Shown here piece by piece: positions 1-33,357 of a stretch of DNA of 34,977 bases. Both the position numbers and the translations under genes were made by a program. This stretch comes from a virus. The notes beneath the pieces are model-generated. The model searched no databases. It had not been told where the DNA came from and saw nothing but the letters and a program-made list of their open reading frames with translations. The DNA lies in IMG/VR virus record IMGVR_UViG_3300008107_000325, positions 1-34,977 of that record. The stretch is one strand, 5' to 3'. Within the stretch, counting starts at the first letter, position 1. The number at the start of each line of letters is the position of its first letter.

Positions 1-1
1 T

Positions 2-793
2 CCAGAAGGTGACAATTTATACTTTACAAACGAAAGAGTAAATGCTGCTGCAACAGGATTATTTGTTCACGCAAATCATACAAACTTAACTGCACAATTT
101 TTAAATAATCAAATAGTATTAAGTGCTTCAGGTGGTGGAGGTGGAGGTGGAGCAAGTTTATTGGTATCAGCAAGTGCACCTTTATCTCCAACAGAAGGAG
201 ATGGATGGTTTGAATCAGATACTGGAACATTCTATGTATTTGATGGAACATACTGGGTAGAAGTAAGTACCAATGTATCGATCAATGCTGAATCTGCTCA
301 AGATGCAATAGCACCATTATTAAATCATGGATTTCACGAAAACATTACTGCAACATACAACGATGCTTCTAATAAAATTATTCTTTCTGCATCAGCAGGT
401 GGCGGGGTAGGAAATGTAATATCGGTCAATGGACAAGAAGGAGTCATTGTATTAACAACTTCTAACATAGCAGAAGGAACAAATAGATATTTTACAAATC
501 AAAGAGCAATAGACGCTGCAAGTGCAGTATATTTATCTGATGCTACAGCAAGTACAAAATATTTAGAACAAACAAATGCTGCCTCTACATACGTAACACA
601 ATCAAATGCAAATACTTTATATGCACCTAAAAACTCTCCAGCCTTTACAGGAATACCAGTTGCACCAACTGCAGCAACTAACATAAATACAACTCAAATT
701 GCAACAACAGCATATGTAAAAAATCAAGCATACTTAACAACAAGCATACTTAACAACAACAAACGCTTCATCAACATATTTAAGCCAAATTGA
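2..793 (+). CDS. Tail fibre protein, 5' truncated and frameshifted at its 3' end
   Basis: The frame is open from base 2, so the gene starts upstream of the window; a TTG at 161 is only an internal codon. Visible modules are a YFTNERV repeat, a Gly linker (about bases 132-152), a W-module (WFESDTGTFYVFDGTYWVEV), a second YFTNQRA repeat, and a phage fibre repeat of the type PAFTGIPVAPTAA...TTQIATTAYV. These are typical of distal fibre shafts that carry adhesins outward from the virion. The frame then ends in an unrelated tail, INIFKPN, just after a 16-bp tandem duplication. Removing one copy joins this frame to the one read from 759 to 1361, so the two are almost certainly one gene. Family assignment is solid; the exact role (side or central fibre) is not known. 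Confidence 0.8.
   Translation, partial: PEGDNLYFTNERVNAAATGLFVHANHTNLTAQFLNNQIVLSASGGGGGGGASLLVSASAPLSPTEGDGWFESDTGTFYVFDGTYWVEVSTNVSINAESAQDAIAPLLNHGFHENITATYNDASNKIILSASAGGGVGNVISVNGQEGVIVLTTSNIAEGTNRYFTNQRAIDAASAVYLSDATASTKYLEQTNAASTYVTQSNANTLYAPKNSPAFTGIPVAPTAATNINTTQIATTAYVKNQAYLTTSILNNNKRFINIFKPN
725..758 (+). repeat. Perfect 16-bp tandem duplication that breaks the fibre gene
   Basis: The unit AGCATACTTAACAACA occurs at 727-742 and again at 743-758, with two extra matching bases upstream. Sixteen is not a multiple of three, so the second copy moves translation from frame 2 to frame 3. Read in the downstream frame, the second copy gives QAYLTTTNASS, a smooth continuation of the fibre repeat; read in the upstream frame it leads to a stop at 791-793. 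Slippage over such a repeat could switch the gene on or off, or the duplication could be an assembly or strain artefact. Confidence 0.9.
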
Positions 794-1361
794 TGCAGAT
801 AATATTTACCAAACAAAGGCAGACGGAATAACTGGTGTAAATGCTTCTGCAGCATTTTATGCAAAAACAGGTGGCCCAATATCTGGAAACATGTCAGTTA
901 GTGGAAGTGCAAATGTTACTGGGAATGTAACGATTGGTGGAAACCTTACAGTATCTGGTTCATCAACAATTATTAATGCTGAAACAATTCAACTAGCAGA
1001 TAACACAATAGTTTTAAATTCAAACGTTACTGGAGTACCTACAGAAAATGCGGGTATAGAAATTGAAAGAGGAGATCTTAACAATGTCTCTATTAGATGG
1101 AATGAAAGTAATGATTATTGGGAATATACAACTGATGGAACAATATATCGTGCTTTAGGTGGAGGAGCGGTTCAGTATGCTCCAGGAGACCCATCTCTTA
1201 CAGATCCTAATATTCTTACAGGAACAGTATGGGTAGAATCAGATGTCACTGGCTCAGCCATAAACGTTAATGACTACCTAACCAAAGTTGATGCATCAGC
1301 AACATACCTTACTCAGGTAGGTGCTAGTTCACATAACTTCACCAATAACGAAAGTGTATAA
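759..1361 (+). CDS. Downstream part of the same tail fibre gene (shifted frame)
   Basis: This frame continues the fibre directly after the tandem duplication; the first ATG is at 891 but the homology begins at about 741. It encodes a beta-repeat shaft (GNVTIGGNLTVSGSSTI), then the module NTIVLNSNVTGVPTENAG followed by IEIERG, NVSIRWNES and YWEYTTDG, well known from long tail fibres of T4-like and cyanophage type, and then a W-module fragment (GTVWVESD). It ends prematurely in SSHNFTNNESV. The sequence after the stop, in another frame, still encodes the expected end of a W-module, so a second frame break lies at about 1320-1345. Without a start of its own and with no RBS visible at 891, it is probably expressed only when the upstream frame is restored. 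Confidence 0.7.
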   Translation, partial: TNASSTYLSQIDADNIYQTKADGITGVNASAAFYAKTGGPISGNMSVSGSANVTGNVTIGGNLTVSGSSTIINAETIQLADNTIVLNSNVTGVPTENAGIEIERGDLNNVSIRWNESNDYWEYTTDGTIYRALGGGAVQYAPGDPSLTDPNILTGTVWVESDVTGSAINVNDYLTKVDASATYLTQVGASSHNFTNNESV

Positions 1362-1431
1362 TGGAACTACATGGATAATTGCTTCAGGTGCTGATGCAGG
1401 ACTCCATCCATTCTTTACGGCGGGGATATAA
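1342..1431 (+). pseudogene. Remnant C-terminus of a W-module fibre protein
   Basis: In this frame bases 1342-1431 read PITKVYNGTTWIIASGADAG followed by LHPFFTAGI and a stop. The intact gene at 2745-3104 ends PITKVYNGTTWIVASGAASE, then SGFHPFFGA. The match is too close for chance, so this is the original end of the fibre gene now out of frame with the part upstream; a TAG at 1318-1320 blocks this frame upstream. Its TAA overlaps the ATG of the next gene, the same TAATG coupling seen throughout the array. A small indel between about 1320 and 1345 would explain it. Confidence 0.7.
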
Positions 1432-1763
1432 TGGCAAATAATTACAAATCACCAATTCAAGTTAAGCCTAGTGCTAACACTCTTACTACTCTTTATACAG
1501 TACCTGCTTCAACACAAGCAATTTTTTCTGCAATTAACATTTGCAATACAGCATCTACAGATGCTACATTTAGAATTGCATTTAGACCAGACGGAGAAGC
1601 AATAGATCCAAAACACTATATAATTTTTGATGCAACAATTGCTGGAAATGATACCTACATGATTAATCAAGGTATGTCTATGGATACAACAGATGTATTA
1701 TCAGTTTATGCTTCCTCAGCAAGCGTTTCCTTTACAGGTTTCTATGCTGAGGTGACTGCATAG
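1431..1763 (+). CDS. Small beta-rich structural protein, 110-residue family, copy 1
   Basis: The 110-residue product has alternating beta-strand-like segments without membrane or signal sequence. Landmarks are LTTLYTVPASTQAIFSAINI near the N-terminus, DATFRIAF, IAGNDTYMINQGMSM, and VLSVYASSASVSFTGF at the end. Close relatives in this window start at 3105, 4968 and 20861; the C-terminal 100 residues of the protein at 8664 are another member and 6476-6638 is a ruined one. Each intact copy follows a W-module or fibre protein, and most precede a Gly-rich protein. I infer a small virion or adhesin-associated domain that links or caps the fibre; no established function is known to me. The start codon overlaps the upstream stop, implying coupled translation. 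Confidence 0.75.
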   Translation: MANNYKSPIQVKPSANTLTTLYTVPASTQAIFSAINICNTASTDATFRIAFRPDGEAIDPKHYIIFDATIAGNDTYMINQGMSMDTTDVLSVYASSASVSFTGFYAEVTA

Positions 1764-2743
1764 TGGGAGTAAGTAATTTAAGATCTGTATCTTTAACACA
1801 AAATGCATTTTCTAGAAGCGAACTACTTACATTAATACCATCTACTCCAGAGCCTGCATTATTTAACTATTTAAATAGTGGACTGAACCAAGGCTTAACA
1901 AAAAATCAACTATTAAGTGCCTCAAGATATTTAGAATATATTCAAGGACAAGGATGGTCTACATATTCATCAGGTGGAATATATTATGCATATAAAAGAT
2001 ATTTAGGAAGTGAAAATAATATAAGTTTTAATTTATTTGCAGGAAATTCAATTAAAGTTTTAATTGTTGCTGGAGGTGGAGGTGGTGGAGGATCATATCG
2101 TGCTGGTGGAGGTGGTGCAGGAGGTTTAATATATAGCGATTCAGTTAGCATAACACCTGGTCAAACTTATAACTTTGTTGTTGGTGGAGGTGGAGCACCA
2201 GGAAACGCAAATACAAGTGGTGGAATTGTTAATGGATCACCTGGAGGAAATTCTTCTGCTTTTGGATTAACAGCAATAGGTGGAGGAGGCGGTGGATCAT
2301 CAGATAGTTCTCAAGCAGGTGGAGTTGGTGGATCTGGAGGTGGAGGTTGGTATAACGGAACTTTTGGAAATGGAACTACTGGTCAAGGAAATAGAGGTGG
2401 AGTTCCATCAACATCTGCTCCCTATGGTTCTGGTGGTGGAGGTGCTGGTGCTGTAGGGGGAAATGCTCAAGGCGGTCAGCGTGGAGGAGATGGATTGCAA
2501 TATAATCTAACAGGAACAAATACCTATTATGCTGGCGGAGGTTCGTCTTCAGATTTTGCAACAAACAGTGGTATTGCTGGCGGACTTGGAGGTGGAGGAA
2601 CTGGTTATAATGGTGGATCAAATACAGTAAATGCTAATGGACAAACAAATACAGGTGGAGGTGGAGGTGCTGGCGGAAACGGTGGTAGTGGAATAATTAT
2701 AGTTAATTTTACTTTTACAATACCAGTATCATTCGGAGCATAA
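1763..2743 (+). CDS. Glycine-rich tail adhesin-like protein, cassette 1
   Basis: A GTG start at 1763 overlaps the previous stop by one base. The first ~95 residues are ordinary (helical segment LLTLIPSTPEPALFNYLNSG, then YYAYKRYLG), and a hydrophobic strand VLIVAGGGGGGG opens a long Gly-rich part with GGGG runs separated by short variable loops. It ends NGGSGIIIVNFTFTIPVSFGA. This matches the glycine-rich domain found at the tips of many phage tails. In Salmonella phage S16 gp38, Gly-rich segments pack as polyglycine-II helices that display receptor-binding loops; a similar fold is inferred here. Related proteins in this window start at 3437 and 5303. Confidence 0.75.
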   Translation: MGVSNLRSVSLTQNAFSRSELLTLIPSTPEPALFNYLNSGLNQGLTKNQLLSASRYLEYIQGQGWSTYSSGGIYYAYKRYLGSENNISFNLFAGNSIKVLIVAGGGGGGGSYRAGGGGAGGLIYSDSVSITPGQTYNFVVGGGGAPGNANTSGGIVNGSPGGNSSAFGLTAIGGGGGGSSDSSQAGGVGGSGGGGWYNGTFGNGTTGQGNRGGVPSTSAPYGSGGGGAGAVGGNAQGGQRGGDGLQYNLTGTNTYYAGGGSSSDFATNSGIAGGLGGGGTGYNGGSNTVNANGQTNTGGGGGAGGNGGSGIIIVNFTFTIPVSFGA

Positions 2744-2744
2744 T

Positions 2745-3104
2745 ATGACAATTAGAGTAGCAAGAGTATGGAATGGAACAGGTTGGGATGAAATATCATC
2801 CGTAATATCTGGTGCTAGAGTTTTTTATCAAAACAATGCCCCATCATCTCCATTACTAGGAGATATTTGGACAGATGCAGATGGTCCAGATACCAACATA
2901 AATACTAATGACTTTGTTTTAAAAGCAGATACTGAATATATAAAATATGGATCTTCTACCCCGACAAATCCAGATACTGGAACTGTTTGGATTGACTCAA
3001 CAAATGTTATTAAACCAATAACCAAAGTGTATAATGGAACTACGTGGATTGTAGCATCTGGTGCAGCAAGTGAATCAGGTTTTCATCCATTTTTTGGAGC
3101 ATAA
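2745..3104 (+). CDS. W-module fibre protein, cassette 2
   Basis: A 119-residue protein made of repeated short modules centred on tryptophan: VARVWNGTGWDEISS, SPLLGDIWTDADGPD, PDTGTVWIDSTN and ITKVYNGTTWIVASG. Such 'GxxW' modules are common in phage fibre and virion-attachment proteins, where they probably form small beta folds. It ends in the hydrophobic tail GFHPFFGA, a C-terminal pattern shared by other W-module proteins here. The start ATG lies one base after the previous TAA, and its own stop abuts the next ATG. It is the first gene of the second [W-module]-[110-residue]-[Gly-rich] cassette. Confidence 0.7.
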   Translation: MTIRVARVWNGTGWDEISSVISGARVFYQNNAPSSPLLGDIWTDADGPDTNINTNDFVLKADTEYIKYGSSTPTNPDTGTVWIDSTNVIKPITKVYNGTTWIVASGAASESGFHPFFGA

Positions 3105-3437
3105 ATGGCAAACACATATAAATCACCAGCACAATTGGTGCCATCGGCACAAACGCTAACTACTCTTTATACAGTTCCTGCTTCAACACAAACTGTAACT
3201 TCAAATATTCACGTGTGTAACTTTGGTGGAACTTCAGCATCAGTTAGAATTGCAGTAAGACCAGAAGGTGCTTCAATATCAAGTCAACATTATTTATTTT
3301 ATGGACTAATGATATCTCCATTTGATACAGTTCAACTAGGAGATGGAATTACTATGGATGCCGCCGATGTAATGTCAGTATGGGCATCAACAGCAAGCGT
3401 AAGTTTTAATTTATCATATGCGGAGGTAACAGAGTAA
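3105..3437 (+). CDS. Small beta-rich structural protein, 110-residue family, copy 2
   Basis: At 110 residues it aligns end to end with the product of 1431-1763: TLTTLYTVPASTQTVTSNIH, ASVRIAVRPEG, FDTVQLGDGITMDAADVMSV, and ASTASVSFNLSYAEVTE. The conserved core is the YTVPA strand, the N-S-x-x-C-N region, and the V(Y/W)ASxASVSF strand near the C-terminus; loops differ, as expected for an exposed virion domain. Translation is coupled to both neighbours. Function is inferred from position only. Confidence 0.75.
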   Translation: MANTYKSPAQLVPSAQTLTTLYTVPASTQTVTSNIHVCNFGGTSASVRIAVRPEGASISSQHYLFYGLMISPFDTVQLGDGITMDAADVMSVWASTASVSFNLSYAEVTE

Positions 3438-4330
3438 TGCCAATTAGTTCATTAAACTCAACAAATAAAAACATTAGTGGATCATTTATTAATGCTAGTG
3501 GAGGATTAGAGACAACAATAGCAGTTGGATCAAGTAATTATCGTGTTCACACATTTTATGCAACATCTACATTTAATGTTTTACAATTAGGAGAATCTCC
3601 AAACAATACAATCGAATACTTGTGTGTTGCAGGTGGTGGAGGTGCAGGTTCACCAAACAGCGGTACATCAGCAGGTGGTGGAGGTGCTGGTGGAATGAGA
3701 AGCGGATCTTTTACACCATTATCAGGAAGTCATACAATTACAGTTGGTGGTGGAGGTGCTCCAGGTTCACCAGGAAATAGGGGAAGTAACGGACAGAATT
3801 CAGTAATAGATATTCCTAATATTACATCTTTAGGTGGAGGCGGAGGAGGATCTTCATACGGCAATGATAGTGGTTTGAATGGAGGATCTGGCGGTGGCGG
3901 TGGAGAAAGAAATGGCGTGGGTTCTTCAATATATCGTGGCTTAGGAACAGCAGGTCAAGGAAATGATGGAGGTCATTCAACTTCACATACATCACCAGTT
4001 TATGGTGGTGGAGGTGGAGGTGGTGCTGGAACTGCTGGATTTACTGGTACTGGAAGTTTTGGTGGAAACGGTGGAGCAGGTGCACTATCTTTAATAAATG
4101 GCACATCAACACATTATGCAGGTGGTGGAGGTTCTGGATCTCATCAGTCTGCAGGAAGTGCTGGTGTTGGAGGAATTGGTGGTGGAGGTTCTGGTGGATA
4201 TGGTACAGGAAGTACTACTCCAGGATCTAGTAATACAGGTGGTGGTGGAGGTGCTGCTGGACAAGGTGGAGCACAAAACTCATCTCCTGGCGGTAGTGGA
4301 ATAGTAATTTTAAGATACAGGATTTCATAA
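3437..4330 (+). CDS. Glycine-rich tail adhesin-like protein, cassette 2
   Basis: The 297-residue protein has a short N-terminal part (about 60 residues, including the strand YRVHTFYATSTFNVL shared with the 5303 gene), then TIEYLCVAGGGGAG and a continuous Gly-rich region with GGGG tracts at regular spacing, interrupted by Ser, Thr, Asn and His loops. The closing strand is GGSGIVILRYRIS, the same terminal motif as in 5303-6298. It lacks a signal peptide or membrane segment. Its ATG overlaps the upstream stop. A polyglycine-II adhesin tip is the favoured interpretation; a structural spacer is the alternative. Confidence 0.75.
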   Translation: MPISSLNSTNKNISGSFINASGGLETTIAVGSSNYRVHTFYATSTFNVLQLGESPNNTIEYLCVAGGGGAGSPNSGTSAGGGGAGGMRSGSFTPLSGSHTITVGGGGAPGSPGNRGSNGQNSVIDIPNITSLGGGGGGSSYGNDSGLNGGSGGGGGERNGVGSSIYRGLGTAGQGNDGGHSTSHTSPVYGGGGGGGAGTAGFTGTGSFGGNGGAGALSLINGTSTHYAGGGGSGSHQSAGSAGVGGIGGGGSGGYGTGSTTPGSSNTGGGGGAAGQGGAQNSSPGGSGIVILRYRIS

Positions 4331-4357
4331 ACTATAATATAAAAGGAGGTAATAAAT

Positions 4358-4726
4358 ATGGCACATTTTGCAGAGATAACAGAAGGAAATGTTGTTTCTA
4401 GAGTAATTGTTGTTGATAACAATGATTGCAAAGATGCCGAAGGTAATGAATCAGAAGCAGTAGGTGCTGCATTTTGTAACACACTTTTAGGCGGTATTTG
4501 GAAACAAACATCTTACAATGGTAATATTCGTAAAAACTATGCAGGTATTGGATATACATATGATGAAGGTAGAGATGCCTTTATACCCCCAAAACCTTTT
4601 AGTAAATGGGTATTAAACGAAGATACATGTAATTGGGAAGCACCTGTTTCATATCCAGAGGGCGAAGATCGCTATACATGGAATGACAATAAAGGAGAAT
4701 GGGAACTAGTAGTAGTTTCTGAATAA
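4358..4726 (+). CDS. Conserved small phage protein with MAHFAEI start
   Basis: The 122-residue protein is preceded by the strongest ribosome site of this array (AAAAGGAGGT, 4341-4350) and by a TATAAT-like box (4333-4338), so it may be expressed apart from its neighbours. It begins MAHFAEITEGNVVSRVIVVD, then LLGGIWKQTSYNGNIRKNYA and YDEGRDAFIPPKPFSKWVLN, and ends in a Trp-rich acidic tail (WEAPVSYPEG, YTWNDNKGEWELV). Small proteins of this pattern recur near tail-fibre genes of marine and freshwater phages; their function is unknown. The C-terminal W-x-W pattern is faintly echoed by the two small proteins at 23238 and 23453. It interrupts the cassette array between copies 2 and 3. Confidence 0.7.
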   Translation: MAHFAEITEGNVVSRVIVVDNNDCKDAEGNESEAVGAAFCNTLLGGIWKQTSYNGNIRKNYAGIGYTYDEGRDAFIPPKPFSKWVLNEDTCNWEAPVSYPEGEDRYTWNDNKGEWELVVVSE

Positions 4727-4968
4727 TGGCAAAACCAACTTATGTATATGATGGAACAAATTGGGTTTCGATAGCAGGTAGTAGTGAATATCCTGTTAGA
4801 TACTCTGCTACATCACCAACTAATGCTTCACAAGGAACTTTATGGATAGATACAACTGATCCAGCAAGTCCAATAATGAAAGTATATGATGGTAACATGT
4901 GGCTTGAAATATCAGGAGCAGGAGGCGGTGGAGGCTTAAAAACTAAGTTTCTACTAATGGGAGCATAA
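4726..4968 (+). CDS. W-module fibre protein, cassette 3
   Basis: Eighty residues carry two W-modules, TYVYDGTNWVSIAG and GTLWIDTTD...MKVYDGNMWLEISG, followed by a Gly linker (GAGGGGG) and the hydrophobic end LKTKFLLMGA. It is the shortest intact version of the first gene of the cassette; compared with 2745-3104 it lacks one module. The Gly linker resembles the one in the fibre at the start of the window. Start and stop both form TAATG junctions with neighbours. Confidence 0.7.
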   Translation: MAKPTYVYDGTNWVSIAGSSEYPVRYSATSPTNASQGTLWIDTTDPASPIMKVYDGNMWLEISGAGGGGGLKTKFLLMGA

Positions 4969-5303
4969 TGGCAGCAACAGAGACAATTAAAACACCTTCA
5001 TTTGTTAATCCAACATCAAATACTTTATCAACACTTTATACCGTTCCAGCAGGAACTCAAGCAGTTATTTCTACAATAAATGTTTGTAATACAGCATCAA
5101 GTGATGCAACATATAGAATTGCAGTTACATCTGGAGGATCTCCAGTATTAGGAAATTATTTAGTTTATGATGCAACTATTGCGGGTAATGAATCAATTTC
5201 ATTTACCCAAGGTATAACCATGGATGAAGGTGACATTTTGGCGGTATATACAAATAGTGCATCATTATCATTCAATGCTTTTAAAATGGAGATTGTTCCA
5301 TAA
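4968..5303 (+). CDS. Small beta-rich structural protein, 110-residue family, copy 3
   Basis: 111 residues, colinear with the copies at 1431 and 3105: TLSTLYTVPAGTQAVISTIN, NTASSDATYRIAV, YLVYDATIAGNESISFTQGI, MDEGDILAVYTNSASLSF, and the end NAFKMEIVP. It is closest to copy 1 in the stretch VYDATIAGN. It is second gene of the third cassette, translationally coupled on both sides. No catalytic or metal-binding pattern is visible; a virion role is inferred from its repeated genomic position. Confidence 0.75.
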   Translation: MAATETIKTPSFVNPTSNTLSTLYTVPAGTQAVISTINVCNTASSDATYRIAVTSGGSPVLGNYLVYDATIAGNESISFTQGITMDEGDILAVYTNSASLSFNAFKMEIVP

Positions 5304-6298
5304 TGGCAATTAATAGTAGTAATAATAATAAGACAACTGGAAAATCTTTAACATACTCAGAAATACAAACTTTAATTGCTAATGGAATGACTAGTGATAA
5401 TATATCTTATCAAATTTCTCAAGGAAAAAATTATAATCAAGTTTTACAAACAGTATTAACTGGGCCATCAAGATATTTTACTGCAACTGGTGGAACAGTT
5501 ACAACATCTGGAAATTATCGAATTCATACCTTTACAAATAGTGGAACATTTTCTGTTTCAAATGCTAATTTTGGTGATACAAATTCTTTTAACGGAGTTA
5601 TTGAATACCTATTAGTTGCTGGCGGAGGTGGCGGTGCTGGTAATGGTGGAGGTGGTGGTGGAGGTGCTGGAGGTTTTATAACAGATACAATTACACTAAC
5701 ATCTCAAAATTACTTAGTTACAGTTGGAGCAGGTGGCCCTGGAACAAGCAATGATAATTTAAAGGGAGTTAATGGTGATAACTCAGTTTTTGGTGCAATC
5801 ACAGCAATAGGTGGTGGTGGAGGTGGAGATTATCAAGGAAGTGGTGGAAATGGTGGATCTGGTGGTGGAGCAGGAAGAGATTCTGGAGGAGCAGCAGGTG
5901 GTAGTCCAACTTCTAATCAAGGAAATGTTGGTGGTAGTGGACCAGGTTCTAGTTATGCTTCTGGTGGCGGTGGAGGAGGTGCTGGTGGCTCTGGAGGAAA
6001 TGGTAGCGGAACTGGTGGTGGACCAAGTGATGCTGGAGATGGAGGAAATGGTGGGATTGGACTTCAATCTTCAATAAACGGAACAGGAACTTATTATGCT
6101 GGTGGTGGTGGAGGTGCATCTTACGGTAGTCGGTCTGGTGGAACTGGAGGTTTAGGTGGTGGAGGAAATGGTGGAACAAATAACGTAACACCTATTAACG
6201 GTTCATCAAATACTGGTGGCGGTGGCGGAGGAAGGCATAGTGGATTTGGATCTAATGGTGGTAGTGGGATATTAATTGTGAGGTATCTAATTTCATAA
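5303..6298 (+). CDS. Glycine-rich tail adhesin-like protein, cassette 3
   Basis: A 331-residue protein with a helical N-terminal ~50 residues (LTYSEIQTLIANGMTSDNIS), a strand YRIHTFTNSGTFSV shared with 3437-4330, then VIEYLLVAGGGGGAGNGGGG and a very long Gly tract broken by short polar loops. The closing GGSGILIVRYLIS repeats the ending of the 3437 gene. The coding strand is dominated by GGT/GGA codons, which gives G-rich, C-poor DNA. Function as for the other Gly-rich proteins: a probable tail-tip adhesin built from polyglycine-II helices, inferred by analogy with phage S16 gp38. Confidence 0.75.
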   Translation: MAINSSNNNKTTGKSLTYSEIQTLIANGMTSDNISYQISQGKNYNQVLQTVLTGPSRYFTATGGTVTTSGNYRIHTFTNSGTFSVSNANFGDTNSFNGVIEYLLVAGGGGGAGNGGGGGGGAGGFITDTITLTSQNYLVTVGAGGPGTSNDNLKGVNGDNSVFGAITAIGGGGGGDYQGSGGNGGSGGGAGRDSGGAAGGSPTSNQGNVGGSGPGSSYASGGGGGGAGGSGGNGSGTGGGPSDAGDGGNGGIGLQSSINGTGTYYAGGGGGASYGSRSGGTGGLGGGGNGGTNNVTPINGSSNTGGGGGGRHSGFGSNGGSGILIVRYLIS

Positions 6299-6468
6299 TG
6301 CCAACACAATTTCCCTTAAGCCCAACAGTTGGAGATCAATACGATTTAAATGGAACTTTATATCAATGGAATGGAGAAGCGTGGATAGTTGTTTCTAACA
6401 TTTCATCTGGTGGAGGTGGAGGAGGAACTGCAACCAACATAGCAACAACATGGTGGTTCGGGGTATAA
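6298..6468 (+). CDS. Short W-module protein, cassette 4 (56 residues)
   Basis: ATG at 6298 overlaps the previous stop. The product starts MPTQFPLSPTVGDQYDLNGT and continues LYQWNGEAWIVVSN, then a Gly linker (SGGGGGGT) and the end TTWWFGV. The order is the same as in 4726-4968: one W-module, Gly linker, hydrophobic C-terminus ending in Gly-Val. It is the first gene of a fourth, incomplete cassette. The gene behind it is broken and no Gly-rich gene follows, so it may be a relic that is still translated through coupling. Confidence 0.65.
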   Translation: MPTQFPLSPTVGDQYDLNGTLYQWNGEAWIVVSNISSGGGGGGTATNIATTWWFGV

Positions 6469-6475
6469 TAATAAT

Positions 6476-6638
6476 ATGGCAAACTTAACTAGATTGCTAT
6501 TTAGCGGGTTCCTTAAGACTTTTATCAGGCAATCCATATGAAACCTTTAGGGTAGCAATGAACGCTAACGACAGAATTTATGCAAGAAGTACAACTGCAT
6601 CAGTTTCCTTTTTAACACAGGGAATTTTGCAAGATTAA
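6476..6638 (+). pseudogene. Decayed member of the 110-residue family
   Basis: An ATG at 6476 gives MANLTRLLFSG, like the start of the 20861 protein (MANLFKAL), but that frame stops at about 6541. In another frame the downstream part reads SGNPYETFRVAMNANDRIYA, then RSTTASVSFLTQGILQD and a stop at 6636-6638. This corresponds to the C-terminal half of the family (IAGND...VYASSASVSFTGF). The middle is missing and the frame changes, so an internal deletion has ruined the gene. It sits exactly where the second gene of cassette 4 should be. Confidence 0.65.
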
Positions 6639-6671
6639 CAAGGAGGTAGCGTGTTTTTGTAATTATAAACA

Positions 6672-6680
6672 TGCTATAAT
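6672..6680 (+). promoter_or_regulatory. Extended -10 promoter (TGCTATAAT), leaderless configuration
   Basis: TGC followed by a perfect TATAAT (6675-6680) lies in the only longer gap of the first array. No good -35 is present at 16-18 bp (T-rich sequence at 6652-6659), as is usual for extended -10 promoters. Transcription should start about 7 bases downstream, that is at or next to the A of the ATG at 6687, so the mRNA would have no leader. Leaderless messages are common in actinobacteria. Confidence 0.65.
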
Positions 6681-6686
6681 AAAATT

Positions 6687-6965
6687 ATGCCAGGCTATGC
6701 TCATCAAACAAATGCTTCTCAGGTTATCGTAGATGAATATTCATTTGATGATTTGGTTGATAAAAAATTCTACGGAATAAAATTCAATCCAAAAACTGGC
6801 AAAGCAGTAGTAGATGTAGTAGGATCAGGTGAAGTAATCTCTCTTCCAACTAAAGGTATTATTAGTGATGAAGATTATAAAACTTGGATAAGTTCTACAA
6901 GACATTTACAATTCTACTGGAAGGAAGACGGAGATAAAGACCGTCTTATAGTGGAGGTTCAATAA
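6687..6965 (+). CDS. Small hypothetical protein at head of the second fibre block
   Basis: A 92-residue soluble protein with mixed charge: SQVIVDEYSFDDLVDKKFYG, then IKFNPKTGKAVVDVVGSGEV, ending HLQFYWKEDGDKDRLIVEVQ. No recognised domain, signal or membrane segment. It has no Shine-Dalgarno sequence directly upstream because the predicted transcript starts at its ATG. It ends one base before the start of the next fibre gene, so it probably leads the operon for the fibre block 6967-9509. A virion-associated role is inferred from position alone. Confidence 0.6.
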   Translation: MPGYAHQTNASQVIVDEYSFDDLVDKKFYGIKFNPKTGKAVVDVVGSGEVISLPTKGIISDEDYKTWISSTRHLQFYWKEDGDKDRLIVEVQ

Positions 6966-6966
6966 G

Positions 6967-7401
6967 ATGCCACAGCCAATTGATTTAGGCAAATTAAGAT
7001 TTAGTTACAACGGTGTATTTGACAACGGCAAACTTTATGAAGTTAACGATGTTGTAAAATACGGCGGTAGTGCATATGTTTATATAAATAACAATTCAGC
7101 ATCAGGAAATAATCCAAGTAATCAAACATACTGGTCACAAATGGTTGACGGTATTCAATACGAAGATGATTGGTCAGCCTCTGCATCTTATCAAAAAAAT
7201 GACGTAGTAAAATACGGTCCACAAACTTTTATTGCATTATCAGATAATACAAATACAGTTCCAACTAACACAGCAACATGGGATACATTTACTGGTGGTA
7301 TTGAATATGTTGGAGTATGGGCTTCTGCAGCAACATATTTTCCAAAACAAGTTGTAAGACTTGGAAATGGACACCATTTACTGCAGGTTTTGAATACTTA
7401 G
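6967..7401 (+). CDS. Tail fibre gene, fragment 1 of 4
   Basis: This frame encodes tandem ~45-residue modules of the type YEVNDVVKYGGSAYVYINNN...W, then YEDDWSASASYQKNDVVKYG with PQTFIALSDNTNTVPTNTAT and WDTFTGG, then a third unit GIEYVGVWASAATYFPKQVV followed by RLG. Such D-V-V-x-x-G / F-I-A / W repeats resemble carbohydrate-binding fibre modules seen in cyanophage and pelagiphage tails. The third unit is cut off after RLGN; about 20 residues expected before its closing Trp are absent and the frame then ends in a spurious GHHLLQVLNT. The repeat continues in another frame from 7368. The ATG is one base after the preceding stop. Confidence 0.7.
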   Translation: MPQPIDLGKLRFSYNGVFDNGKLYEVNDVVKYGGSAYVYINNNSASGNNPSNQTYWSQMVDGIQYEDDWSASASYQKNDVVKYGPQTFIALSDNTNTVPTNTATWDTFTGGIEYVGVWASAATYFPKQVVRLGNGHHLLQVLNT

Positions 7402-7856
7402 GTTTATGGACAGCATTAACTCCTTACTTACCTGGAGACATAGTTAATGATGGAGTTTCTGCATTTTTAGCAGTAGGTGAGTTTACATCTGGAGCAGACT
7501 TTGCATTAGAAAAATTAGATACATCTAAATGGGAATTGTTTGTACAAGGTGCAGATTATCTTCCATCACAATTAGGTCAAGCAGGAAAAATTTTAACAAC
7601 AGATGGAAACAATCCACTGTGGGTTAGAGATGTTGAATTAGGCGAAACAGTAGTATTAGAAAAACTTTTTGTAGGACCAGAAGCACAATCATTTAATGCT
7701 AGTGCAGCATTAACTTCTCCAATTGCAGTATTTGCATTAGACTCAGGAGAAGATGCATATGCACAAGTAGCATTTCAAAACGTATCAGCAAGTTCTTCAA
7801 CAGATTTAATTGTTTACGCAGATAGCGGAGACGATACATCTGATTCTTCCAGATAA
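7368..7856 (+). CDS. Tail fibre gene, fragment 2 of 4 (frame shifted)
   Basis: From the codon at 7368 the sequence reads WTPFTAGFEYLGLWTALTPY, the end of the interrupted module and the start of the next, then LPGDIVNDGVSAFLAVGEF, KWELFVQGADYLPS, GQAGKILTTDGNNPLWV and a second region with SFNASAALTSPIAVFALDSG and STDLIVYADSGDD. The last part resembles the 'YADSGDN' segment of cyanophage fibre proteins. The frame stops at 7854-7856 soon after GDDTSDS. An ATG exists at 7317 in this frame but lies in sequence belonging to fragment 1, so it is unlikely to be a true start. Independent expression is doubtful. Confidence 0.6.
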   Translation, partial: WTPFTAGFEYLGLWTALTPYLPGDIVNDGVSAFLAVGEFTSGADFALEKLDTSKWELFVQGADYLPSQLGQAGKILTTDGNNPLWVRDVELGETVVLEKLFVGPEAQSFNASAALTSPIAVFALDSGEDAYAQVAFQNVSASSSTDLIVYADSGDDTSDSSR

Positions 7857-8373
7857 TCGTGTACATATTGAAATTGCAACAGAATCTACAAATCCATCAA
7901 ATGGTGCGTTAACAGTACTTGGTGGTGCTGGTGTACAAGGTAATCTAAACGTATTAGGTAATATGGGAATTCAAGGTAATATTAATCTTCAAGGTAACAT
8001 TACAATTGGTGGTGGACAATTTGTAACTGAAAACTTGTCATCATCTGACCCAATTCTTTTCGTTGGTAACGCAAACCCAGCAAACGACTACGATCTAGGA
8101 TTTATGACAGAACAAAAACTTCCAAGTGCAAGTGCAAGAGCACTTTTTGGTATGGAAAGAATGACAGCAAGTGCAGTATTGTTAGAAACAAAACAATATG
8201 GTGGCACTTTTGTTGAAGTAGTTGCTGGTGTCAATGTTCCAGTAGGTGCTCCAGCAAACGTATGTAATGTAACTTTAGATACAATTCATGCGTTAAAAGT
8301 TGGAGACTATGTAGAAATAGCAGGATTAACAGATACAAATCTAAATGGAATACAACTTATTAAAAGATCATAA
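7846..8373 (+). CDS. Tail fibre gene, fragment 3 of 4 (frame shifted)
   Basis: In a third frame the sequence continues DNRVHIEIATESTNPSNGAL followed by TVLGGAGVQGNLNVLGNMG and IQGNINLQGNITIGGGQF, a beta-repeat shaft like that at 891-960, then the fibre module ENLSSSDPILFVGNANPAN and YDLGFMTEQK. The end has a TVLGVN-like region and DTIHALKVGDYVEIAGLTDT, homologous to DHNLSSGDYITINGVDATF in the 21552 protein. It stops at GIQLIKRS, and the next part of the domain is missing. Read together with its flanks it is the centre of one long fibre gene. An upstream TTG (7810) exists in this frame but lies in fragment 2 sequence. Confidence 0.6.
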   Translation, partial: LPDNRVHIEIATESTNPSNGALTVLGGAGVQGNLNVLGNMGIQGNINLQGNITIGGGQFVTENLSSSDPILFVGNANPANDYDLGFMTEQKLPSASARALFGMERMTASAVLLETKQYGGTFVEVVAGVNVPVGAPANVCNVTLDTIHALKVGDYVEIAGLTDTNLNGIQLIKRS

Positions 8374-8662
8374 TAACAATCAGTGGTATTTACTAACTGG
8401 ACTTGAAGATAAGCCATTAAATGATATAGATATGGATGATATTACTTGCGATGTATTGAACGTAGGTTCATTAAGAGCAAAATATGGGGTAAACGTATTC
8501 TCTACCGAAGCAGAAAGAGATGAAATAATACCTGATCCAAGTCATGGTACAATGGTTTATGTGCAAACAAAAAAGGCACAACAATATTACAGTAGTCAAG
8601 AAAGATGGGAAAGTATCGAGTTCGATAGTTTCGTATCACCACTTCTACTGATGGGAGTATAA
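8363..8662 (+). CDS. Tail fibre gene, fragment 4 of 4 (C-terminus)
   Basis: A fourth frame carries KDHNNNQWYLLTGLEDKPLN, DITCDVLNVGSLRAKYGVNV, then the module FSTEAERDEIIPDPSHGTMV with YVQTKKAQQYYSSQERWESI, which is the same C-terminal fibre module as FATTAARDAAIPSPVAGTIA...LYIWDGAQWDIV in the 21552 gene. It ends FDSFVSPLLLMGV, the hydrophobic Gly-Val ending of the W-module family. An ATG at 8345 lies in this frame but inside fragment 3. The normal C-terminus and tight spacing to the next gene (one base) indicate that the four fragments form one broken or frame-variable gene. Confidence 0.6.
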   Translation, partial: KDHNNNQWYLLTGLEDKPLNDIDMDDITCDVLNVGSLRAKYGVNVFSTEAERDEIIPDPSHGTMVYVQTKKAQQYYSSQERWESIEFDSFVSPLLLMGV

Positions 8663-8663
8663 A

Positions 8664-9509
8664 ATGGCAATTTCCAATTATAAGGTCTTAGGACAAGTTA
8701 CCTCTGGATTATATGAAAGACTTCCAGTTAAAACAAGAGGTTTGACAACAAACCAAGCATACTTTGAAACAACAACACCTCACGGTTTAACAGTAGGAGA
8801 TCGTGTAGAAGTTTGGTCAACAGATCAATCAATCATGAATCGCCGCCGTGTAGTTGCAAAACTTGGCAAAAACGATGACACTAACCCAACAACATACTTT
8901 ACAGTTCCACTAACAAATGCAAATATTACAGATGCAGCACAAACAGCAGCATATGTTTACTCATATGAAAATGCTCAAGGAAAAAGAGTTTTAAATAAAC
9001 AAAAAACAGGTGGCATTGTTACTTTAATTACAGATGGTAATCACAATGCAGCAGCAGGAGACTTAATAACAGTTGACATCAACGATGCACAATATGATGG
9101 AGATTGGGTAATCTTTGATTCAGTATCTTCAAGTGCTTTTAGATACATTGCTCTTGGAGCAGATCAATCATCAGCATCAGTTATTACAGGAACAGCACCT
9201 GGTGCAGTAGCAATTCAAAAAGCCAACACAGTATTTACAGTTGGAACATCAGAACAAGCGATTATTTCAACACTAGCAGTTTCTAACACACTAACACACT
9301 CATGCTACTTCTATGCATATATAGTAAAAAGCGGAGATTCAAAAACATCTCCTCCAGATAAATCAATAATTGCAAATAGAGTTTCGTTAGATCCAGGTGA
9401 AACCTACAGCATGACCATGGGCTACACATTAGATCAAGGTGACGCACTAGTTGTTAGGGCTTCCCATGCTGGTATCTACTTTACTGCATTCGGAACGTTA
9501 CTGAAGTAA
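8664..9509 (+). CDS. Fibre-associated protein ending in a 110-residue-family domain
   Basis: 281 residues with two clear parts. Residues ~25-175 contain THGLTVGDRVEVWSTD and GNHNAAAGDLITVDINDAQY followed by DGDWVIFDSVSSSAFRYIA, two copies of the small beta domain also found in the 21552 protein. Residues ~185-281 (ANTVFTVGTSEQAIISTLAV ... GETYSMTMGYTLDQGDALVV ... ASHAGIYFTAFGTLLK) match the 110-residue family of 1431, 3105 and 4968. The family that is free-standing elsewhere is thus fused here. It follows the fibre fragments by one base and precedes a Gly-rich gene, so this block has the same three-part order as the cassettes. Confidence 0.7.
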   Translation: MAISNYKVLGQVTSGLYERLPVKTRGLTTNQAYFETTTPHGLTVGDRVEVWSTDQSIMNRRRVVAKLGKNDDTNPTTYFTVPLTNANITDAAQTAAYVYSYENAQGKRVLNKQKTGGIVTLITDGNHNAAAGDLITVDINDAQYDGDWVIFDSVSSSAFRYIALGADQSSASVITGTAPGAVAIQKANTVFTVGTSEQAIISTLAVSNTLTHSCYFYAYIVKSGDSKTSPPDKSIIANRVSLDPGETYSMTMGYTLDQGDALVVRASHAGIYFTAFGTLLK

Positions 9510-9524: not shown

Positions 9525-10625
9525 GTGACCCTAACCAGAACAAAAAATACTAACAGGTTAGCAACATTATTTAATACAGCATTTACATCATATGAATCTA
9601 TTGATTTAGATCGTGCTGGTCATTATAAAACAATATTTGACAAAGGATCAGGAAATGGTCAACACTATACACAGCCAGGAACAAATTTTGGAGAATGGGT
9701 TTTAATACCAGAACAAACTTTTACTGGTGAAGTAAAAATGTGGGGTGCAGGTGGTGGATCACATAATGATTCTGGTGCTTCAGGTGGTGGAGGTCACGCA
9801 AGATCATTAGTTACATTTTATAAAGACAAGCCTTATACACTTTGGGTAGGACAAGGTGGAAGTTATGCCTATCACAATCATGATAGCAATGGAAATAGAA
9901 CCAACCCATGGGAATCTGGTGGATTTGGTGGTGGTGGAAACGGCGGACACAATGCTGGCGGTGGTGGTGGAATGTCTGCAATATTTTATAACACTCATGG
10001 ACTAGAAGGAATGAGTGGTTCACAATTTAGCCACGGAATAGCATCAACTTTTGAAGGACCAAATCAGTCTAATGCTATATTAGTAGCAGGTGGAGGTGGT
10101 GGACAAGGACATCACGGAACATCAAATCATGGACAAGGTGCAGGCGGTGGTGGACAACATGGACATCATGGACATGCACAAAATCACGCACATCAATATG
10201 ACGCAGCACACGCTTGGCGTGATGGATCATATGGTTCTGGTGGATATAGAATGCATGGTGGACATGGTGGAGCATCTTCTTATACAGGTGGTGGAGGTGG
10301 AGGATACTGGGGTGGTGCTGGAGGAACACATAGAGGAACTGGCTCTCATCATAACGGTGGTGGAGGTGGAGCAGGTCACGCATTAGATTTATACTCAACT
10401 CCAGAACATTGGAATTATTGGATTAAAGAAAAATATCCAAATATTGTTAGAAATTCAACATTAGAAATTGCTCCAGGAAATCATCAAAATCATAATCCAG
10501 CACCAGCAGCATCAACCGATGTTGACGCAAATAGTTCGCAAGGATGGGGAACAGGTAGTGGCAGAACTGGAAGTTCTCATGGTGGCGGTAATGGTAGAAT
10601 GATTATAAGGACAGTGGCCACATAA
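9525..10625 (+). CDS. Gly/His-rich tail adhesin-like protein, type A, copy 1
   Basis: GTG start at 9525 behind a purine-rich AAGGGGGGT stretch. The 366-residue product has an N-terminal ~65-residue part (LATLFNTAFTSYESIDLDRA, GEWVLIPEQTFTGEVKMWGA) and then the phage glycine-rich domain: GAGGGSHND, VTFYKDKPYTLWVGQGG, SNAILVAGGGGGQGHHG, followed by a His-dense stretch GGQHGHHGHAQNHAHQYDAA. The C-terminus returns to Gly-Ser and closes with GNGRMIIRTVAT. The WGAGGG and YTxxVGQGG strands frame the Gly-helix lattice in this family. His clusters could bind metal ions or tune packing; that is inference. Its best paralogue is 11796-12956. Confidence 0.75.
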   Translation: MTLTRTKNTNRLATLFNTAFTSYESIDLDRAGHYKTIFDKGSGNGQHYTQPGTNFGEWVLIPEQTFTGEVKMWGAGGGSHNDSGASGGGGHARSLVTFYKDKPYTLWVGQGGSYAYHNHDSNGNRTNPWESGGFGGGGNGGHNAGGGGGMSAIFYNTHGLEGMSGSQFSHGIASTFEGPNQSNAILVAGGGGGQGHHGTSNHGQGAGGGGQHGHHGHAQNHAHQYDAAHAWRDGSYGSGGYRMHGGHGGASSYTGGGGGGYWGGAGGTHRGTGSHHNGGGGGAGHALDLYSTPEHWNYWIKEKYPNIVRNSTLEIAPGNHQNHNPAPAASTDVDANSSQGWGTGSGRTGSSHGGGNGRMIIRTVAT

Positions 10626-11809
10626 TGACTAATTCAAGTTCAAAAAGAAAAATTGATACAGACGTATCATTAGATAATTATGCTTATTATTATTTAAAAA
10701 CTCCAAGTGGTGCTTTAAGTAAAGATCAAATTGTAGATAATACAAATAGTTATGAACATTCATATACCGCAATTAAGGGAGAAATGTTTAATGTTGGCGG
10801 TGGAAGTATATTTAGTACTGAAACTGAATATCAATTAGATTACGGCTCACATGTTTTATATCCAAAAAATGATTTTACTGCATGGGTTTCCTTATGGGGT
10901 GCAGGTGGCGGTGGAGCAGACCCATCAGGTGGAAATTATGGTGGTGGAGGAGGATTTACAAGAGGTCTAGTAAAATTTAAAGCAAACACTCCATACACAA
11001 TAGTTGTTGGAGAAGGTGGACATTGTGATAATGCATCAACACATGGTGGTGGTGGAAGAGGTCACTCATCAGGTGGTTCTGGTGGCGGTCTTACAGGTCT
11101 ATTTATGAACGTAGATCATAATGGCAGAGGAGATTGGGGTCACACAGACAATACTCCAGTTAGAAGAGATCAGGCATTGTTAGTTGCAGGTGGTGGTGGA
11201 GGAAAAGGCCATCATGGATCTGCACATCATGGTAGCGGTGGCGGTGGCGGTGGCTGGTATGGAAGAAGTGCACATAACGTTTCTGGAGCAACTCAATTTA
11301 ATGGTGGATCTGGTGGATATAATAACGGAGGTCGTGGTGGGTCTGGTCACGGATTTCATGGAGGACACTCTGGATCAAACACTTCTTGGCTAGGTGGAGG
11401 TGGAGGTGGTTGGTATGGCGGTGGTGGCGGAGGTCATACATCAAATCATCATAATGGCGGATCTGGTGGATCAGGTCATCATGCTATGCCTTCAGAAGGT
11501 GGATCTTTTCCAAATAGCGAATTATCAAAATACTTAGTTACAGCACATACACTATCTTCAGCATCTTATCATAATTTTAGATCAGATAAACCAGCAAATT
11601 GGCTAAACGACTATGCTCACAACAAAGCAAGAAATGGAAATCATGTTGGAAGAGGTGCCGCTGGAAATGATATGACACACGGCTCAAGACATGGAAAAGT
11701 TGTAATAAATTTTGCTCCAGGGTATTTAAAGAATGCTTATAATACAATAGAACAGAATCCAATGCCATTATCATTTAATCAAGGAAACACTAGATATGAC
11801 AGGAATTAA
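10625..11809 (+). CDS. Gly/His-rich tail adhesin-like protein, type B, copy 1
   Basis: 394 residues. The N-terminal ~95 residues differ from type A (YAYYYLKTPSGALSKDQIVD, GEMFNVGGGSIF, DYGSHVLYPKNDFTAWVSLW) and lead into GAGGGGADPSGG, KFKANTPYTIVVGEGG, STHGGGGRGHSSGGSGGGL and QALLVAGGGGGKGHHGSAHH. A WYGGGGGGHTSNHHNGG segment lies in a 101-nt stretch that is identical in the 12956 gene. The C-terminal ~60 residues are not Gly-rich and are the longest such tail of the array. Start overlaps the upstream stop (TAATG); the next gene's ATG lies inside its last 14 bases. Confidence 0.75.
   Translation: MTNSSSKRKIDTDVSLDNYAYYYLKTPSGALSKDQIVDNTNSYEHSYTAIKGEMFNVGGGSIFSTETEYQLDYGSHVLYPKNDFTAWVSLWGAGGGGADPSGGNYGGGGGFTRGLVKFKANTPYTIVVGEGGHCDNASTHGGGGRGHSSGGSGGGLTGLFMNVDHNGRGDWGHTDNTPVRRDQALLVAGGGGGKGHHGSAHHGSGGGGGGWYGRSAHNVSGATQFNGGSGGYNNGGRGGSGHGFHGGHSGSNTSWLGGGGGGWYGGGGGGHTSNHHNGGSGGSGHHAMPSEGGSFPNSELSKYLVTAHTLSSASYHNFRSDKPANWLNDYAHNKARNGNHVGRGAAGNDMTHGSRHGKVVINFAPGYLKNAYNTIEQNPMPLSFNQGNTRYDRN
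11357..11457 (+). repeat. 101-nt perfect direct repeat, copy 1
   Basis: Identical, base for base, to 13658-13758. It covers HGGHSGSNTSWLGGGGGGWY followed by GGGGGGHTSNHHN in the two type B proteins. The flanking coding sequences differ at many third positions, so the perfect block stands out. The offset (2301 nt) is a multiple of three and both copies are in the same reading frame. Confidence 0.9.
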
Positions 11810-12956
11810 AGAAAATCAGCCAATAGCACATATTTTTAATGAAGCCTTAGCAGAGCATAAAGATGTCTATTGGAAAGATAAAAATCAAGGAAAAATATTT
11901 GCAGAGGGCTTTGGTCAAACAACACATCAGTTTGATCACAATGAACCAGGACATTTTGATTTTGGAAGAAAATATGGAATATGGACAATAATTCCTTATA
12001 GATCTTTTTATGGAACAGCAAAAGTGTGGGGTGCAGGTGGGGGTGCTAGAGGTTATGATACTGGAGACGCAGTTGCTGGTTCAGGAGGATACTCTAGTGC
12101 TACAGTTAAATTTTTAAAAGATATTCCTTATACAGTTTTAGTTGGTCAATCACCAGGTCACATTACACATAGACATAGTGGTGCTGACGTTCGTGACAAT
12201 TATGGACAATCTGGATCTTTTGGTAACGGTGGAGGTGGAGCAACTCACGGTGGTCCAGGAGGTGGCCTATCTGGTATATTTTTTAATACATTTGGAAATC
12301 ATGGTGGTCCAGGTCATGGGCATGGTGCTAACCATACTTCATTCAGATCAATTGGAAGACAAAATGCTTTAATTATTGCTGGCGGTGGCGGAGGCTCAGG
12401 ACATCATAGTACTGGTCATCATGGAACTGGAGCAGCAGGTGGTGGAACAAATGGAACTAGTGGACACAATGCTGGTGGTGGCTCACAAACAGGTGGTGGT
12501 GGAAACTGGGGACACGGATCACAAGCAGGCTACTCACTACACGGTGGACACGCAGGAGACGGAGGAAACTCTGGAGGCGGCGGAGGTGGATGGTTTGGTG
12601 GTGCTGGTGGAACACATCATAGTAATCATCATAATGGTGGCGGTGGAGGTTCAGGACATTTGCTAGATTTACATTCAACAGGTGGGTATCCAAATAATTG
12701 GATTAAAACAAAGTATCCAGATTTAGTAACAGATGGATATTCAGTTAATGGTAAAACAACGCATCAAAATCATAATATTAACCCTGGATACCATGCAGAC
12801 TCAGATTGGATGGGTGCAGGTCAAGGTGGAGGATCTCAAGGTCAATCAAGTGGAGAACAAATTTTTGGAAGAACTGGATTAGGTGGAGGATGGGATCATT
12901 CGGGGTATCCTGGAAGAGTAGTAATTTCTGCAAATAGATGGGTAGGTACTGACTAA
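11796..12956 (+). CDS. Gly/His-rich tail adhesin-like protein, type A, copy 2
   Basis: 386 residues, beginning inside the end of the previous gene. N-terminal signature: IAHIFNEALAEHKDVYWKDK and YGIWTIIPYRSFYGTAKVWG, parallel to LATLFNTAFTSYESIDL and GEWVLIPEQTFTGEVKMWG of the 9525 protein. Gly-rich body with NALIIAGGGGGSGHHSTGHH, GGWFGGAGGTHHSNHHNGGG and the shared tail element DLHSTGGYPNNWIKTKYPDL (compare DLYSTPEHWNYWIKEKYPNI in 9525). The paired N- and C-terminal matches show that the two genes arose by duplication and then diverged in loops. The last strand is GRVVISANRWVGTD. Confidence 0.75.
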   Translation: MTGIKENQPIAHIFNEALAEHKDVYWKDKNQGKIFAEGFGQTTHQFDHNEPGHFDFGRKYGIWTIIPYRSFYGTAKVWGAGGGARGYDTGDAVAGSGGYSSATVKFLKDIPYTVLVGQSPGHITHRHSGADVRDNYGQSGSFGNGGGGATHGGPGGGLSGIFFNTFGNHGGPGHGHGANHTSFRSIGRQNALIIAGGGGGSGHHSTGHHGTGAAGGGTNGTSGHNAGGGSQTGGGGNWGHGSQAGYSLHGGHAGDGGNSGGGGGGWFGGAGGTHHSNHHNGGGGGSGHLLDLHSTGGYPNNWIKTKYPDLVTDGYSVNGKTTHQNHNINPGYHADSDWMGAGQGGGSQGQSSGEQIFGRTGLGGGWDHSGYPGRVVISANRWVGTD

Positions 12957-14104: not shown

Positions 14105-14112
14105 GAGTAAAA

Positions 14113-18075: not shown

Positions 18076-18423
18076 ATGGCATTTCCCGCTACATATAACT
18101 TTAACTACTATAGAGGAGATACTTACTCCTTTTCAATTACCCCAAAAAATGCAAATGGGACATCCTTTGATCTAACTGGATACTCAGCAGTATTTAACAT
18201 AGCAACTGCTAGAGGAGTTTCTGGAGTCTTTGTCTCAACAGCAACAGCAACAGTCAACACCAACTCTGGAACAGTTGATTGTGCAATAAGTCCAACAGTT
18301 GGAAATGACTTAGGATTAACCGTATATCACTATGATGTGCAAATAACAAAAAATAACAAAACATATACTTTGGTAACAGGAACCATTAATGTGACTCAGG
18401 ACATCACTGGTGCAGGTGCATAA
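18076..18423 (+). CDS. Small fibre-module protein, duplicated pair, first gene copy 1
   Basis: 115 residues, beta-rich, with Shine-Dalgarno AAAGGTGAT. Anchors: NFNYYRGDTYSFSITPKNAN, FDLTGYSAVFNIATARG, VYHYDVQITKNNKTYTLVTG and INVTQD. The same anchors occur in 19365-19703 (YYKGDTFELLVQPKDSSG, LNLTGYSGLFTISTARG, YVYDIQVSSGS, NINVTQDISG). The Y(Y)xGD start and INVTQD end resemble small baseplate or fibre-attachment domains of siphophages (BppU N-terminal style); this is a tentative parallel. The stop overlaps the next ATG (TAATG). Confidence 0.65.
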   Translation: MAFPATYNFNYYRGDTYSFSITPKNANGTSFDLTGYSAVFNIATARGVSGVFVSTATATVNTNSGTVDCAISPTVGNDLGLTVYHYDVQITKNNKTYTLVTGTINVTQDITGAGA

Positions 18424-33326: not shown

Positions 33327-33357
33327 TTGTAAAGTTCCTATAAACACTGATTATAAT
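33327..33357 (+). promoter_or_regulatory. Possible promoter before the protease/scaffold gene
   Basis: TTGTAA (33327-33332) and a perfect TATAAT (33352-33357) with an unusually long 19-base spacer lie in the gap after the portal gene. The start codon at 33367 follows with GAGGTAGT between. It may be a weak internal promoter. Confidence 0.4.

Follow-up and report, generated by a model that had tools for sequence, protein, structure and literature searches.

In the S16/T2-type gp37-gp38 system, the fibre is a multi-protein assembly with a separate glycine-rich adhesin. This adhesin, gp38, forms the tip of the trimeric fibre, carries hypervariable receptor-binding loops and is compatible with a given fibre through its matching N-terminal part (PMC12892980). 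In case of Pam3, the fibre consists of one protein with an alpha-helical N-terminus for the baseplate, and its partner, the Tfa-like chaperone gp25, contains an alpha-helical domain (PMC9608196). The Pam3 fibre gp24 (PDB 7YPX, 7YFW) combines a tumour necrosis factor (TNF)-like beta sandwich with a glycine-rich distal domain. For an actinobacterial phage, the tail tip of Bxb1 (PDB 9D93, chains Qa/Qb) has been solved, and the term 'brush' domains is used for mycobacterial siphophages (PMC13243795). The present study concerns the IMG/VR virus record IMGVR_UViG_3300008107_000325, a stretch of 34,977 bases referred to here as the window, and a repeated gene cassette in it which encodes a W-module sequence, a protein of about 110 residues and a glycine-rich (Gly-rich) protein. 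The portal protein of the window shares 54% identity with portals from Streptomyces phages, Beuffert and Faust among them, so an actinobacterium is the likely host.

We assign a probability of roughly 60% to the reading that this cassette is a snap-on joint composed of a fibre plug, a jelly-roll adaptor and an exchangeable tip. The upstream fibre, or a short W-module protein, would end in a hydrophobic C-terminal peptide, the plug, and the small jelly-roll adaptor encoded by the next gene would bind it. The product of the third gene, a polyglycine-type adhesin in which a beta sandwich forms the base and the loops are variable, would then hold the adaptor via its flexible N-terminus. Because plug and adaptor would stay constant while the tip is exchanged, phages could swap or multiply their tips. 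We infer the docking of plug and tip on the adaptor, a trimeric state, the presence of several tips on one virion and the binding of a receptor. In logic the cassette is related to the S16/T2 system with its separate adhesin; gp38 holds its own attachment region, and the cassette, present several times in a genome, is proposed to attach by a separate jelly-roll protein together with a C-terminal peptide. As a possible member of the gp38 group the cassette was rejected, since the low-confidence stretch ahead of the beta sandwich of the tip G2 (listed below) spans just 18 residues or so, where gp38 has an N-terminal attachment domain.

The sequence-only reading had described three such cassettes, and both their homology and their spacing are borne out. 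Homology was confirmed among the 110-residue genes (1431-1763, 3105-3437 and 4968-5303): the other two are 55% and 42% identical to the second copy, with expectation values (E) of 4e-36 and 3e-23 in a comparison with the 35-kb record, a similarity far above chance. The DNA of the Gly-rich genes is repetitive, and the 110-residue genes are free of low complexity. The described linkage by overlapping or abutting stop and start codons was also found within the cassettes: the Gly-rich genes start at -1 nucleotide, and the gaps from the W-module genes to the adaptors are 0 and -1. The first W-module is present as stated, but it is the C-terminus of a single fibre open reading frame of 907 residues in contig L006 (IMGVR 3300008108_000315), which is 98.7-100% identical to the window across positions 1-8335. 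Units 2 and 3 are separated by an unrelated gene of 122 residues, which follows a gap of 27 nucleotides. Two further members of the 110-residue family had gone unnoticed, one forming the C-terminal part of 8664-9509 and the other at 20861-21166. The plug endings in the window are HPFFTAGI, HPFFGA, FLLMGA, WWFGV, LLLMGV and EALALGL. The features, all on the plus strand, are as follows.

1345-1428, plus strand: C-terminal W-module of the first fibre with the plug HPFFTAGI (1405-1428), from the comparison with L006
1431-1763, plus strand: adaptor A1, 110 residues, phrog_1276, predicted jelly-roll beta sandwich (fold from the model of a homologue)
1763-2743, plus strand: Gly-rich tip G1, 326 residues, GTG start, PF21722 (profile match)
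2745-3104, plus strand: W-module plug carrier W2, 119 residues, ending in HPFFGA (3084-3101)
3105-3437, plus strand: adaptor A2, 110 residues (homology, profile match)
3437-4330, plus strand: Gly-rich tip G2, 297 residues, modelled by AlphaFold2, with an N-terminus of low confidence
4358-4726, plus strand: phrog_7759 protein, 122 residues, between units 2 and 3 (profile match)
4726-4968, plus strand: W-module plug carrier W3, 80 residues, ending in FLLMGA (4948-4965)
4968-5303, plus strand: adaptor A3, 111 residues (homology, profile match)
5303-6298, plus strand: Gly-rich tip G3, 331 residues (profile match)
6298-6468, plus strand: W-module plug carrier W4, 56 residues, ending in WWFGV (6451-6465)
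6476-6638, plus strand: adaptor A4, broken by a 149-bp deletion at 6495, with no Gly-rich gene next (comparison with L006)
6967-8662, plus strand: second fibre, broken in the window, with the plug LLLMGV (8642-8659) (comparison with L006)
8664-9509, plus strand: adaptor A5, 281 residues, with the N-terminal arm MAISNYKVLGQV, an insert, and the body from about residue 168 (homology)
9525-10625, 10625-11809, 11796-12956, 12956-14104 and 14113-15123, plus strand: five consecutive Gly-rich genes
20304-20852, plus strand: protein of 182 residues with the plug-like tail EALALGL (20829-20849), second class
20861-21166, plus strand: adaptor A6, 101 residues, Streptomyces-phage type, 46.5% identical to Spernnie (homology)

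A first line of evidence for the snap-on reading comes from the gene upstream of the adaptor. Relatives of the 110-residue family were gathered from viral contigs (about 90 others) and their gene neighbours were compared. The gene directly upstream is of many kinds, from about 50 to 1500 residues in length, and typically ends in a short hydrophobic C-terminal peptide. In class I the endings are FLLMGA, HPFLLMGG, LMLGGM, HPFFTAGI and similar ones, and a single loose pattern covering them was found in 71 of 92 distinct upstream genes and in 21 of 809 genes elsewhere in these loci (Fisher P about 1e-66, the genes being treated as independent after removal of ends more than 80% alike). Several of these 21 control genes are themselves other plug-bearing fibre or W-type genes. 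In class II, the relatives of A6, an IMGxx ending (IMGAY-like) was present in 32 of 47 distinct upstream genes as compared to 3 of 407 controls. Class III comprises the relatives of a protein of the Pelagibacter phage HTVC026P, and here [AS]IALG, a pattern which replaced an earlier and too narrow one, was found in 77 of 77 loci and 0 of 211 controls, the contigs being closely related. Among 19 public phage records, 18 showed a recognisable or looser plug on the upstream gene: IMGVW in the Streptomyces phages Caelum, Joe, Spernnie, Omar and Aaronocolus; IALG in HTVC010P, HTVC026P, Roseobacter phage CRP-9, cyanophage S-TIM5, Rhizobium phage RHph_I1_18, Methylophilales phage Melnitz-3, Yersinia phage GN1 and S-SM2; LMLMGG in Pontimonas phage phiPsal1; and looser hydrophobic endings in HMO-2011, S-SRM01, S-CAM1 and P-SSM2. 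The sole exception was DSL-LC04, whose upstream gene has no plug ending.

The codons of the plug were also informative. GGA GCA encodes Gly-Ala and is a Shine-Dalgarno sequence at once, and where the adaptor starts within 4 nucleotides, a Shine-Dalgarno-like stretch lies inside the last codons of the upstream gene in 42 of 50 cases. With the adaptor start 12-58 nucleotides away, such a stretch is seen in the last codons in only 1 of 13; the Shine-Dalgarno sequence sits between the genes, and the glycine codon is GGT or GGC in 7 of the 13, yet the residues LMGA or LGGM are retained. This retention argues that the plug is maintained for the protein. Judged from these codons, the plug is under selection as protein, and in tight pairs the same codons also aid translation.

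The adaptors A1-A3 match phrog_1276 over its first 110 positions (E 7e-11, 8e-9 and 3e-9). Adaptors of all three classes match this family, those of the other classes with E of 1e-7 to 1e-10; some class III adaptors match phrog_26609 instead, and the HTVC026P adaptor matches both. These are families with no assigned role, and the same gene context was found in Streptomyces, Pelagibacter, Synechococcus, Rhizobium and Yersinia phages. A literature search of open-access papers found no description of such an adaptor or of the C-terminal motif upstream of it. The family is present in 167 Streptomyces phage records alone, and in cellular genomes its relatives were found at one locus only, in a Bacteroides metagenome-assembled genome. 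In a Pfam scan, A1 and A2 had no match and A3 had just weak matches to unrelated families (E above 0.1), and no solved relative of the adaptor was found by sequence. An alignment of plug, adaptor and tip as one fusion was set aside, since its Gly-rich rows fell onto the adaptor region. The adaptor fold has been predicted by AlphaFold2 from contig L054, where plug and adaptor are read through in the natural DNA (79 rows), as an eight-stranded sandwich with a predicted local distance difference test score (pLDDT) of 92-97. In BFVD this fold matches many stand-alone phage proteins, some of them named virion structural protein, and also domains inside the tail-fibre-like proteins of P-SSM2 and S-CAM1. 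Moreover, natural open reading frames join the adaptor to other domains, which were judged by eye: to a Gly-rich domain in a frame of 377 residues in L048, to further domains and a Gly-rich domain in L055, and to RCC1-like repeats in L074. In L014 and in the window gene 8664-9509, an insert lies between the N-terminal arm of the adaptor (YKVLGQ) and its body. These fusions and inserts speak for the adaptor as a component of the completed tip.

On the tip side, G1, G2 and G3 match PF21722 (Gly_rich_2) with 72.9, 82.2 and 66.3 bits against a curated cut-off of 24.3 (E 5e-18 to 7e-23), and they also match phrog_2295. A Gly-rich gene follows 58 of 93 distinct adaptors, usually at a distance of -1 nucleotide, as compared to 38 Gly-rich genes among 561 others. 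Downstream genes which are not Gly-rich mostly encode 100-1500 residues, and many of them are fibre- or adhesin-like. The tips also show N-terminal motifs by class, a weak M[AGS][IV] in class I and a strong M[ASG][YF]IGxxP in class III, the latter being found on genes further downstream as well. A Melnitz-3 protein (L101, 3349-3984) carries the tip tag MAYIGAEP at its N-terminus and the plug LAIALG at its C-terminus, as would be expected of a chain extender. In the AlphaFold2 model of G2 (pLDDT 91), confidence is low for the first 18 residues, which are followed by a beta sandwich and then by the Gly-rich body. The best solved fold match of this model by Foldseek was the Bxb1 tail tip (E 7e-6), with a TM-score of only 0.33-0.42. 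The Pam3 fibre was matched at E 4e-5 and gave a weak profile match to the tip (E 0.05); Pam3 differs in its alpha-helical chaperone, whereas the cassette adaptor is a predicted jelly roll. The S16 structure 6F45 was not among the 50 Foldseek matches listed for the G2 model, and the tip profile had no sequence match to the S16 structure.

The co-inheritance of the parts was analysed in ten sister contigs, each of which carries between one and five cassettes, by shuffling the cassettes within genomes in 2000 trials. Between genomes, the similarity of adaptors and that of plugs correlated with r 0.84, which was reached by 0 of 2000 shuffles and is the strongest of the three ties; the values for the adaptor with the Gly-rich N-terminus and with the rest of the Gly-rich protein were r 0.49 (0 of 2000) and r 0.47 (10 of 2000). 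The order of adaptor types varies among sister phages, being A1-A2-A3 in the window and A2-A1-A3 in L010. The proposal of the sequence-only reading that attachment module, adaptor and tip are inherited together is upheld by this covariation, by the changes in unit order and by the adaptor-tip fusions. Its refuting condition, that the families lie mostly apart in other phages, does not apply to the adaptor and the upstream peptide, which are usually adjacent; for the Gly-rich gene the outcome is only half in favour, as it is next in the fraction of loci given above. The exact three-part unit did not hold up as a conserved entity, as the W-module is optional and the tip varies, the constant part being the C-terminal peptide and the adaptor. 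From the gene neighbourhoods, the conserved unit looks like a plug and adaptor with an exchangeable tip, which is widespread among phages and for which we found no earlier description in the open-access papers.

Several points weigh against the snap-on reading. For the phage of the window itself, the case is drawn from sequence and predicted folds. The motif patterns of classes I and II were fitted after the data had been seen. The loose class I motif is absent from 21 of 92 upstream genes, although four of these are plainly related variants and several others are a tip or phrog_7759-like gene ahead of a second adaptor. Behind some plug-bearing genes lie glycosyltransferase-like genes (function judged from sequence) and no adaptor. 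In the L054 monomer model the plug is undocked and disordered, with a pLDDT of about 50 and no strand. Further, 35 of the 93 adaptors are without a Gly-rich gene next, and no tip is evident beside A4 and A6 of the window. The glycosyltransferase-like genes follow LMLGGM-like plugs in L028 (1166-2444), L051 (2-680), L077 (1557-2469) and L094 (1731-2637), with an adaptor a few kb off, and one adaptor may serve several fibres.

The main rival explanation takes the 110-residue protein as an assembly chaperone for the fibre C-terminus, like T4 gp38, Pam3 gp25 or Tfa, which binds to the C-terminal peptide while the fibre folds and leaves before maturation, and the Gly-rich proteins as separate fibres. 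The order of a fibre gene and then a small gene is typical of chaperones, folding could plausibly be checked at a short, exposed C-terminal peptide, and gp25, the chaperone of the Pam3 fibre gp24, was not detected in virions (PMC9608196). On the other hand, A1-A3 gave no sequence match to the Tfa/Caudo_TAP chaperones or any other tail-fibre-assembly family in Pfam, and their best PHROG is phrog_1276, which is not an assembly family. A chaperone that leaves also fits poorly with an adaptor which is fused to Gly-rich and RCC1-like domains, whose fold resembles a domain within tail-fibre-like proteins of P-SSM2 and S-CAM1, and with which the tips covary; homologues in HTVC010P and S-TIM5 are annotated as virion structural protein. 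We consider this explanation unlikely.

A slightly less probable explanation accepts that plug and adaptor bind as structural parts, with the adaptor as a terminal cap or a receptor-binding lectin and the Gly-rich protein attached elsewhere on the virion. Jelly rolls and related beta sandwiches are frequent sugar binders, and the best PDB matches of the adaptor fold are generic viral jelly rolls only (E 2e-3 or worse). The lack of an evident tip next to A4 and A6 and the weaker covariation of the adaptor with the Gly-rich protein than with the plug also fit such a cap. Against it stand the open reading frames of L048 and L055, in which adaptor and Gly-rich domain are directly fused, the excess of Gly-rich genes next to adaptors over other genes, and the N-terminal M[ASG][YF]IGxxP which one tip class shares with other downstream genes.

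The last explanation takes the conserved upstream ending as an in-frame translation of the ribosome-binding site that serves the next gene, and the cassette as unrelated structural genes in a tightly packed operon. It draws on the Shine-Dalgarno-like stretch of the close pairs and is very improbable, because with distant starts the codons change and the residues stay, the hydrophobic run ahead of the glycine is left unexplained, class III keeps IALG although most adaptor starts are 7-15 nucleotides away, and the peptide is kept by some genes with no adjoining adaptor gene. An in-frame Shine-Dalgarno sequence as the cause of the Gly-Ala ending was rejected by the comparison of codons in near and far pairs.

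The broken reading frames of the window were compared with L006. Relative to this contig, the window has deletions of 95 bp at 1330, 149 bp at 6495, 70 bp at 7364 and 206 bp at 7842; at 725 it carries a tandem duplication of 16 bp. All five differences break a frame, and all lie within 8 kb. The first fibre is interrupted by the 95-bp deletion and the duplication, whereas in L006 it is the single 907-residue frame ending in the W-module and HPFFTAGI. The second fibre is interrupted by the 70-bp and 206-bp deletions, and in L006 it is one open frame of at least 548 residues which reaches the end of the locus. The intact 149-bp stretch was found in one other viral contig, L006 itself, and the deletion junction of the window had no match in any other viral contig, so the deletions are probably assembly errors, a real variant being less favoured. 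A decayed fourth cassette, which had been read at 6298-6476, is rejected, as the A4 gene is intact with 103 residues in L006 (12046-12357), and the apparent decay is very probably an artefact.

A number of other features were observed in the window and its relatives. In the Gly-rich series behind A5 (9525-15123), several proteins are also His-rich, and three scanned genes match PF12810 (ALK/LTK glycine-rich domain). Directly after this series lies a tryptophan-halogenase-like gene at 15144-16784 (PF04820, E 5e-101). A second repeated pair is formed by 18076-18423/18423-19340 and 19365-19703/19706-20284, in which similar small proteins are each followed by a fibre-like protein; the first small protein (18076-18423) has a weak BppU_N match just under the curated cut-off. 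The protein 33187-34737, encoded after the portal gene, contains a run of APAEEA repeats. Relatives of the phrog_7759 protein lie beside or near adaptors in L088 (about 4641) and in Melnitz-3 (L101, 2940-3311).

Our study also points, more tentatively and with somewhat less than an even chance in our estimate, to a general coupling of tailed phages. It would have three matched classes of plug, phrog_1276-type adaptor and N-terminal tip tag (for example LAIALG, MANTFK... and M[AS]YIGxxP as one matched set), by which phages of Actinobacteria, Cyanobacteria and Proteobacteria would exchange unrelated tips on unrelated fibres, with one or a few adaptors serving several tips in a genome. If the snap-on reading is right, a C-terminal peptide of about 4-8 residues would flag the fibre proteins, the adaptor gene and the receptor-binding tip gene, and would account for the variety of tip folds (Gly-rich, RCC1-like and others) encoded behind one small gene. 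Such a simple and testable rule for locating host-range modules would apply to hundreds of phages, marine, freshwater and Streptomyces phages among them, whose corresponding genes are at present annotated as hypothetical or merely structural.

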